DNA of 64,000 nt from Methylobacterium sp. Its GTDB lineage: Bacteria; Pseudomonadota; Alphaproteobacteria; Rhizobiales; Beijerinckiaceae. The position numbers were made by a program, and so were the translations under genes. The notes below the pieces were generated by a model. That model worked only from the letters and a program-made list of their open reading frames with translations, ran no database searches and had not been told where the DNA came from. Where the stretch lies: positions 124,001 to 188,000 of the forward strand of contig PERO01000003.1 of NCBI GenBank assembly GCA_002928875.1. The letters are read 5' to 3'. How positions within the stretch are numbered: position 1 is the stretch's first letter; each line of letters opens with the position of its first letter. Shown piece after piece: positions 28,137 through 29,918 of the stretch.

Positions 28137-28952
28137 TCAGGCCGGTTCGGAGGCATGTTCCGCTTCGTCCTGCCGCTTGCGCTTCAGATAGGCGCGCGCG
28201 GAGACGGGCAGGCAGCCCACATAGATGAGCGTCAGGGCCGACACTGTCTCGAACGGGTGAATCACCAGCAGCAGCGCCACGATGCCCGCCACCAGCAGCA
28301 AGGGAATCGCCCATTGGCGCGAAACCGGCGTCTTCAGGCCCTTGCCAGAGAAGGTCGGCAGCCAGCTGACGGCGAGAATGCCGCTCAGGATCGTCCAGAT
28401 CATCACGACGACCGTTTCGCCGACGAATTGCGGCAGGCCGGCGAGGTGCAGGTTGAGCGGCAGAAGCGCCATCATCGCGCCCGAAGGCGCCGGCACGCCA
28501 ACGGCGAAGGCCTTCTGCCATTCCGGCTTCTGCGGGCTGTCGATCATCACGTTGAAGCGCGCAAGCCGCAGGGCCTGCGCGAAGGCCAGAACCAGCCCGG
28601 CGATCCAGCCGGCGGTCTTCAGGTCCTTCATCACCCACATGTAGAGGACGAGCGCCGGTGCGCAACCGAAGCTGACGAAATCCGCGAGCGAATCGAGTTC
28701 GGCACCGAATCGCGAGGTTCCGCCGAGCGCCCGCGCGATGCGGCCGTCGAGCCCGTCCAGCACCGCCGCCACCATGATCGAGATCGAGGCCATGTCGAAC
28801 CGGCCCTCAAGCGCGAACTTCACCGCCGTCAGGCCCGCCGCGAGCGCCAGCAGCGTCACCAGGTTGGGAATGAGCATGCGGATCGGCACGGGCCGGAAAC
28901 GCCGCTGCGGCGGCGTCGGCTCGGGTTCGTAAGGCGGGAAGATCGTTTCCAT
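28137..28952 (-). CDS. pssA: CDP-diacylglycerol--serine O-phosphatidyltransferase
   Basis: DGLDGRIARALGGTSRFGAELDSLADFVSFGCAPALVLY CDP-alcohol phosphotransferase motif; adjacent to psd. Confidence 0.94.
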   Translation of the reverse strand: METIFPPYEPEPTPPQRRFRPVPIRMLIPNLVTLLALAAGLTAVKFALEGRFDMASISIMVAAVLDGLDGRIARALGGTSRFGAELDSLADFVSFGCAPALVLYMWVMKDLKTAGWIAGLVLAFAQALRLARFNVMIDSPQKPEWQKAFAVGVPAPSGAMMALLPLNLHLAGLPQFVGETVVVMIWTILSGILAVSWLPTFSGKGLKTPVSRQWAIPLLLVAGIVALLLVIHPFETVSALTLIYVGCLPVSARAYLKRKRQDEAEHASEPA

Positions 28953-29204
28953 CAAACTCTCGGGTACTGTGCTGCCGCCTTACGATTCTTCACGTTTGAC
29001 GCCACGCCGCAAGCGGCGGGCTGTCGGGCGGGAAGATCGTTTCCATCACACTCTCGGACGCAGCAACTGCCGCCTTACGCTTCGCCTTTATGCCGCCATG
29101 CCGCAAGCGGCGGGCTTTCGGGCAGGAAGATCGTTTCCATCACACTCTCGGACACAGCAAATGCCGCCTTACGCTTCGCCTTTTTGACGCCACGCCGCAA
29201 GCGA
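28934..29204. repeat. 94-bp tandem repeat, about 2.9 copies (28934-29027, 29028-29121, 29122-~29204)
   Basis: Direct reading: GCGGGAAGATCGTTTCCATCAAACTCTCGG..., GCGGGAAGATCGTTTCCATCACACTCTCGG..., GCAGGAAGATCGTTTCCATCACACTCTCGG..., each followed by GCCGCCTTACG...CGCCGCAAGCG. Confidence 0.92.
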
Positions 29205-29219: not shown

Positions 29220-29918
29220 TCAATCGACGCGGAAATTGCGCTGCGGCTCGGCGGAGCGCAGGTCGACCAGCACGGTCTCGCCGCCGATGGCCCGCTGCCC
29301 CTCGGTAACCAGCGCGCGTGCCTCCGCCGCGACATAGATATCCGTGCGCGAGCCAAATCGGATCAGGCCGAAACGCGCGCCGGCGGTGATCTCCTCACCT
29401 TCCTTCACGAAGCAGAGGATGCGCCGCGCGATCAGCCCGGCAATCTGCACGCAGCCGATCGGGCCCGAAGACGATTCGATCACGAGGCTGTTGCGTTCGT
29501 TGTCCTTCGAGGCCTTGTCGAGATCGGCATTCAGGAACAGGCCCGGCGTGTAGACAATCCTGCGGATCTTGCCCGAAACCGGCGCGCGGTTGATGTGCAC
29601 GTCGAACACCGAGAGGAACACCGAGATCATCAGCATCGGCTGGTCGCCGAGGCCCAGTTCCGCCGGCGGCACGGCCTGGCCCACGAAGCTCACGCGGCCA
29701 TCGGCCGGCGAGATCACGAGGCCTTCGCGCAACGGCGTCACGCGCTTCGGATCGCGGAAGAAATACGCCACGAACAAAGGCAGCAGCCAGAACAGCCAGC
29801 CCACGCGCGGCAGCAGCCAGTCCATCAGCAGCGCAAGCACCACCGCTCCCGCCACGAACAGGAATCCCTCCGGATGGATGGGCGTGATCTGCTTGCGAAT
29901 GGAGGCGATGATCGACAT
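29220..29918 (-). CDS. psd: Phosphatidylserine decarboxylase
   Basis: VISPADGRVSFVGQ; FLSVFDVHINRAPVSGKI; RFGLIRFGSRTDIYV (GS processing motif). Confidence 0.94.
   Translation of the reverse strand: MSIIASIRKQITPIHPEGFLFVAGAVVLALLMDWLLPRVGWLFWLLPLFVAYFFRDPKRVTPLREGLVISPADGRVSFVGQAVPPAELGLGDQPMLMISVFLSVFDVHINRAPVSGKIRRIVYTPGLFLNADLDKASKDNERNSLVIESSSGPIGCVQIAGLIARRILCFVKEGEEITAGARFGLIRFGSRTDIYVAAEARALVTEGQRAIGGETVLVDLRSAEPQRNFRVD

Follow-up and report, generated by a model that had tools for sequence, protein, structure and literature searches.

The repeat array at the psd-pssA junction

On the minus strand of the window, the 64-kb stretch of Methylobacterium DNA analysed here (genome G000), the genes psd and pssA are joined by a tandem array that extends from 28933 to 29203. 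Tandem Repeats Finder assigns it a period of 94 bp, 2.9 copies, 86% matches and a score of 394, which makes it the top-scoring tandem array of the window by a wide margin. An ungapped repeat search recovered two 94-nt copies with 93% identity (28997-29090 and 29091-29184), and a 31-nt start-containing block that is present three times at a spacing of exactly 94 nt. The sequence ATGGAAACGATCTTC is read on the minus strand at 28952, 29046 and 29140; the ATGs of the upstream array units lie at 29140 and 29046, while the one at 28952 belongs to pssA itself, whose first 20 nt make up the third start-block copy. Along the minus strand, the psd stop codon (ending at 29220) is followed by a partial unit, full unit 1, full unit 2 and the pssA ATG (Table 1). 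The hairpin remnant of the partial unit is without most of its left arm.

An earlier note, made from the sequence of this DNA, had described a 94-bp period, three successive units (two full and one partial), a start block repeated upstream of pssA and a hairpin in each full unit, and all of these features are confirmed, the hairpin being perfect in unit 2 and having one mismatch in unit 1. The note's placement of the pssA start at 28952 also agrees with most orthologues, which open with METIFPP, MEPIFPP or MDPIFPP at the equivalent place. The note had raised the possibility of an assembly artefact; the array is not one, because the units of G000 are non-identical and arrays of this kind occupy the same place in five other genomes, two of which have it on contigs 0.9 and 1.4 Mb in length. 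Consisting of units tens of base pairs long that follow one another head to tail, the array is a minisatellite (VNTR), specific to a clade of six species and situated at the psd-pssA junction.

Table 1. Features of the psd-pssA junction in the window.
Feature	Position	Strand	Evidence or remark
psd, phosphatidylserine decarboxylase, 232 aa, upstream gene	29220..29918	-	NCBIfam NF003677, 338.8 bits, cut-off 315 exceeded
Partial unit adjoining psd: hairpin remnant and spacer, without ATG block	29141..29203	-	Repeat families D3 and D4; alignment
Full unit 1, 94 bp, opens with ATGGAAACGATCTTC	29047..29140	-	Tandem Repeats Finder and repeat search
Mini-ORF 1, METIFLPESPPLAAWRHKGEA then stop, 28 nt ahead of next ATG	29075..29140	-	Coordinate arithmetic
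Unit 1 hairpin, single stem mismatch (GCCCGCCGCTTGCGGCATGGC)	29095..29115	-	
Full unit 2, 94 bp, next to pssA	28953..29046	-	Tandem Repeats Finder and repeat search
Mini-ORF 2, METIFPPDSPPLAAWRQT then stop, shortened by 1-nt insertion, stop 37 nt ahead of pssA ATG	28990..29046	-	Alignment
Unit 2 hairpin, intact, GCC CGCCG CUUG CGGCG U GGC	29001..29021	-	Divergence test
pssA, CDP-diacylglycerol-serine O-phosphatidyltransferase, 271 aa	28137..28952	-	TIGR00473, 100.8 bits, slightly below cut-off 107; orthologous starts
Palindrome CGCCGC-CGCA-GCGGCG within pssA codons 13-18 (TPPQRR)	28900..28915	-	Possible ancestor of unit hairpin; homology test borderline

Distribution and origin

The array is found in 6 of the 17 genomes of the genus, and in these only at the psd-pssA site. 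The six carriers form one clade in the psd protein tree (support 100/99), corresponding to a single gain; where labelled, they are MAGs entered as Beijerinckiaceae, Methylobacterium sp. and Hyphomicrobiales. Nine other members of the genus have no array, and the distance from the psd stop to the pssA ATG, as read from their sequences, is 9-15 nt. A 92-nt psd-pssA gap without a repeat of the pssA start is encountered in G016. In G008 the contig stops within pssA, at about codon 30, and the gap counts do not include this genome. No real match to the unit was detected in 281 further genomes of the family (298 family genomes were searched, including the 17 of the genus), and a weak match in another genus (G256) was set aside as background.

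The array appears to have a single origin by local duplication: one tandem duplication spanning the pssA start, in the ancestor of the clade, would have founded it. Insertion of a mobile repeat (REP- or MIRU-like) at the pssA start is extremely unlikely: a hairpin-bearing unit beside a start codon does recall MIRU elements, but each genome has a single site, matches to the hairpin pattern at other sites are about as frequent as those to a reversed control, and the unit includes the opening 20 nt of the pssA gene. On the first two of these observations a dispersed or mobile element was rejected. An origin by recombination between the similar ends of psd (EPQRNFR) and pssA (PPQRRFR) was also considered and is unsupported, as the unit spacer aligns with the psd tail no better than shuffled sequences do in most species (p 0.03-0.48). 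Homology of the unit hairpin with the TPPQRR codons of pssA is borderline when compared with shuffles (p 0.04-0.35).

Copy number and likeness of the units

Complete upstream units number one in G003, one in G006 (with its ATG lost), one plus a partial unit in G007, and two plus a partial unit in G000. G004 has at least three, together with two unit halves that flank an inserted short-chain dehydrogenase gene, and G010 has at least a partial unit and the start of one unit; the counts for G004 and G010 are lower bounds because their contigs end inside the array. A range from one to at least three complete upstream units between species is in keeping with a minisatellite, and the copy-number variability suggested in the earlier note is borne out at this level, with one genome per species compared. 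In G004 the units show 99-100% identity and in G007 the copies are nearly identical, whereas identity between G000, G004 and G007 is 82-89%, below the within-genome values. Within the G000 array, unit 2 lacks spacer changes that the partial unit and unit 1 have in common. Slippage or unequal recombination would give such likeness within a genome, and copy number would be expected to change by the same routes.

Gain and loss of units might be supposed to tune pssA expression, as in phase-variable VNTR leaders. The number of units does differ between species, and at the senX3-regX3 locus of Mycobacterium tuberculosis the MIRU units differ between strains (PMC4213456); an imperfect 94-bp repeat is, however, expected to change slowly, and such a rheostat would be very unlikely. 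It is also very unlikely that the number of self-copied units, each with a start and a hairpin, serves as an evolvable dial for the balance between phosphatidylserine synthase and decarboxylase.

Mini-ORFs and the duplicated start

The duplicated starts open short reading frames, and it had been proposed in the earlier note that the array is a duplicated translation-initiation region with a regulatory role. The array, the start copies and the variation in copy number between species all stand, but a role exerted through the duplicated starts is unsupported, since G006 has no upstream ATG, the upstream mini-peptide is frameshifted in G003, and mini-ORF 2 of G000 is shortened by a 1-nt insertion and ends early. 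Leader-peptide (uORF) regulation was rejected on the same grounds, as neither start, peptide nor frame is conserved. Judged from these comparisons, it is probably not the duplicated translation start that has been kept, and the mini-ORFs are best read as passive copies of the pssA start.

Where a mini-ORF is intact, its stop lies 26-37 nt from the next start (from coordinates), which is at the edge of what termination-reinitiation tolerates, the reported limit for such coupling being 30-40 nt (PMC12548453). Intact mini-ORFs may help to hand ribosomes on to pssA, and a contribution of this type is possible; it would be dispensable, because G006 is without the upstream ATG. A more demanding proposal is that the mini-ORFs bridge the widened psd-pssA gap by termination-reinitiation, and so restore the coupling that relatives obtain from a gap of 9-15 nt. 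The stop-to-start distances and the short gaps of relatives without the array are what this ribosome relay would predict, yet the relay is unlikely, given that G006 has a gap of 103 nt and no upstream ATG, that 77-79 nt separate the psd stop from the first mini-ORF in G007 and G000, and that peptide and frame are not kept.

Conservation and structure of the hairpin

The hairpin segment (alignment columns 21-50 in five species, a small sample) diverges by 8% on average over ten species pairs, compared with 21-45% for the fourfold sites in psd and pssA, and it lies below fourfold-site divergence in all ten pairs. Between G000 and G006 there is one difference in 29 within the segment versus 0.38 at fourfold sites (p 5e-5). 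Two species pairs on disjoint tree paths give a combined p of 6e-4 for constraint on the hairpin, a value that is somewhat optimistic because the limits of the segment were chosen after viewing the alignment, though the hairpin itself had already been named in the earlier note. Divergence in the remainder of the spacer matches that of the fourfold sites (p 0.74-0.84).

The 21-nt hairpin has a folding energy of -13.2 kcal/mol in four species, and its loop is CCAG in G003. It is intact in G006 despite the loss of the ATG, and in G003 despite the frameshift; two of the stem changes observed, in G007 and in unit 1 of G000, weaken the pairing without compensation. Judged by its low divergence the hairpin sequence looks constrained. 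Taken as a whole, the 280-nt leader has no better fold than shuffled sequences (z +1.5). No hairpin-then-U-run site typical of an intrinsic terminator and no sigma-70-type promoter match were found in the array, and no Rfam family scored above its gathering score, the best being a 12-bit chance match outside the array.

A purely neutral minisatellite, that is, a harmless chance duplication in which the hairpin has been kept by an accident of few substitutions, is a possible but less probable explanation. It accommodates the decay of the mini-ORFs, the fourfold divergence rate of most of the spacer, the drift in copy number and the unexceptional fold of the leader, but it sits poorly with a hairpin segment that is less diverged than fourfold sites in every species pair. 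The best explanation, with a probability of about one half, is that the locus is a clade-specific minisatellite with a putative intercistronic RNA hairpin in each unit, the mini-ORFs being passive copies. Going by its conservation, the 21-nt G+C hairpin would most likely be the part that matters, as an element of the psd-pssA mRNA (that the two genes are transcribed together is assumed from their order), where it may slow decay of the message or separate the two cistrons. Since the founding event, selection would have held mainly this hairpin. Equal conservation would be expected if the segment were bound, as DNA, by a protein. The array is real, confined to the clade and present in different copy numbers from species to species; it is mostly ordinary, with a modest regulatory question, and the emphasis moves from the start copies to the hairpin. 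Its interest is that a tandem repeat arose once, out of the start of a gene within a membrane-lipid gene pair, and that several species show it at different stages, so that one can look for the part retained by selection (apparently the hairpin) and the parts given up (the mini-ORFs).

Comparison with known systems

Intercistronic stem-loops and REP-type elements stabilise segments of operon mRNA. The psd-pssA array resembles them in having a G+C-rich hairpin between cistrons, and differs from REP-type elements in that it belongs to no dispersed family. The earlier note knew of no described regulator of this form for pssA; none was found for this gene as far as the literature search went, but a close analogue, and the closest known, is provided by the MIRUs of senX3-regX3 (PMC12548453, PMC4213456). 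These are described as 77-bp units with small ORFs in the senX3-regX3 intergenic region of M. tuberculosis (Supply et al. 1997, as cited in PMC12548453; PMC4213456). At both loci two co-directional genes are separated by short units in repeated copies, of 77 bp in the MIRU case and 94 bp at psd-pssA, the units vary between strains there and between species here, and in both each unit can hold a small ORF that leads to a downstream start. In contrast, MIRUs are dispersed and apparently mobile whereas the psd-pssA unit is confined to one locus per genome, MIRU ORFs overlap the downstream start and are coupled at -4 nt whereas the mini-ORFs stop 26-37 nt short of it, and the psd-pssA unit carries the downstream gene's own start. 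By analogy the array may work somewhat like the MIRU locus, yet it is not one. Translational coupling driven by short ORFs (PMC12548453) is similar in that the mini-ORF stops lie close to the next start, and different in that the mini-ORFs are unconserved, with the ATG lost in G006.

Gene insertion and assembly breaks

In G004 (contig C10, L066:2290-3500) a repeat unit located between psd and the array is interrupted by a short-chain dehydrogenase/reductase gene and lies in two parts; the array seems to have provided the site at which this gene inserted. The array also breaks some assemblies, which is a practical caution. Two contigs of G004 share a 45-nt end that lies within the array.
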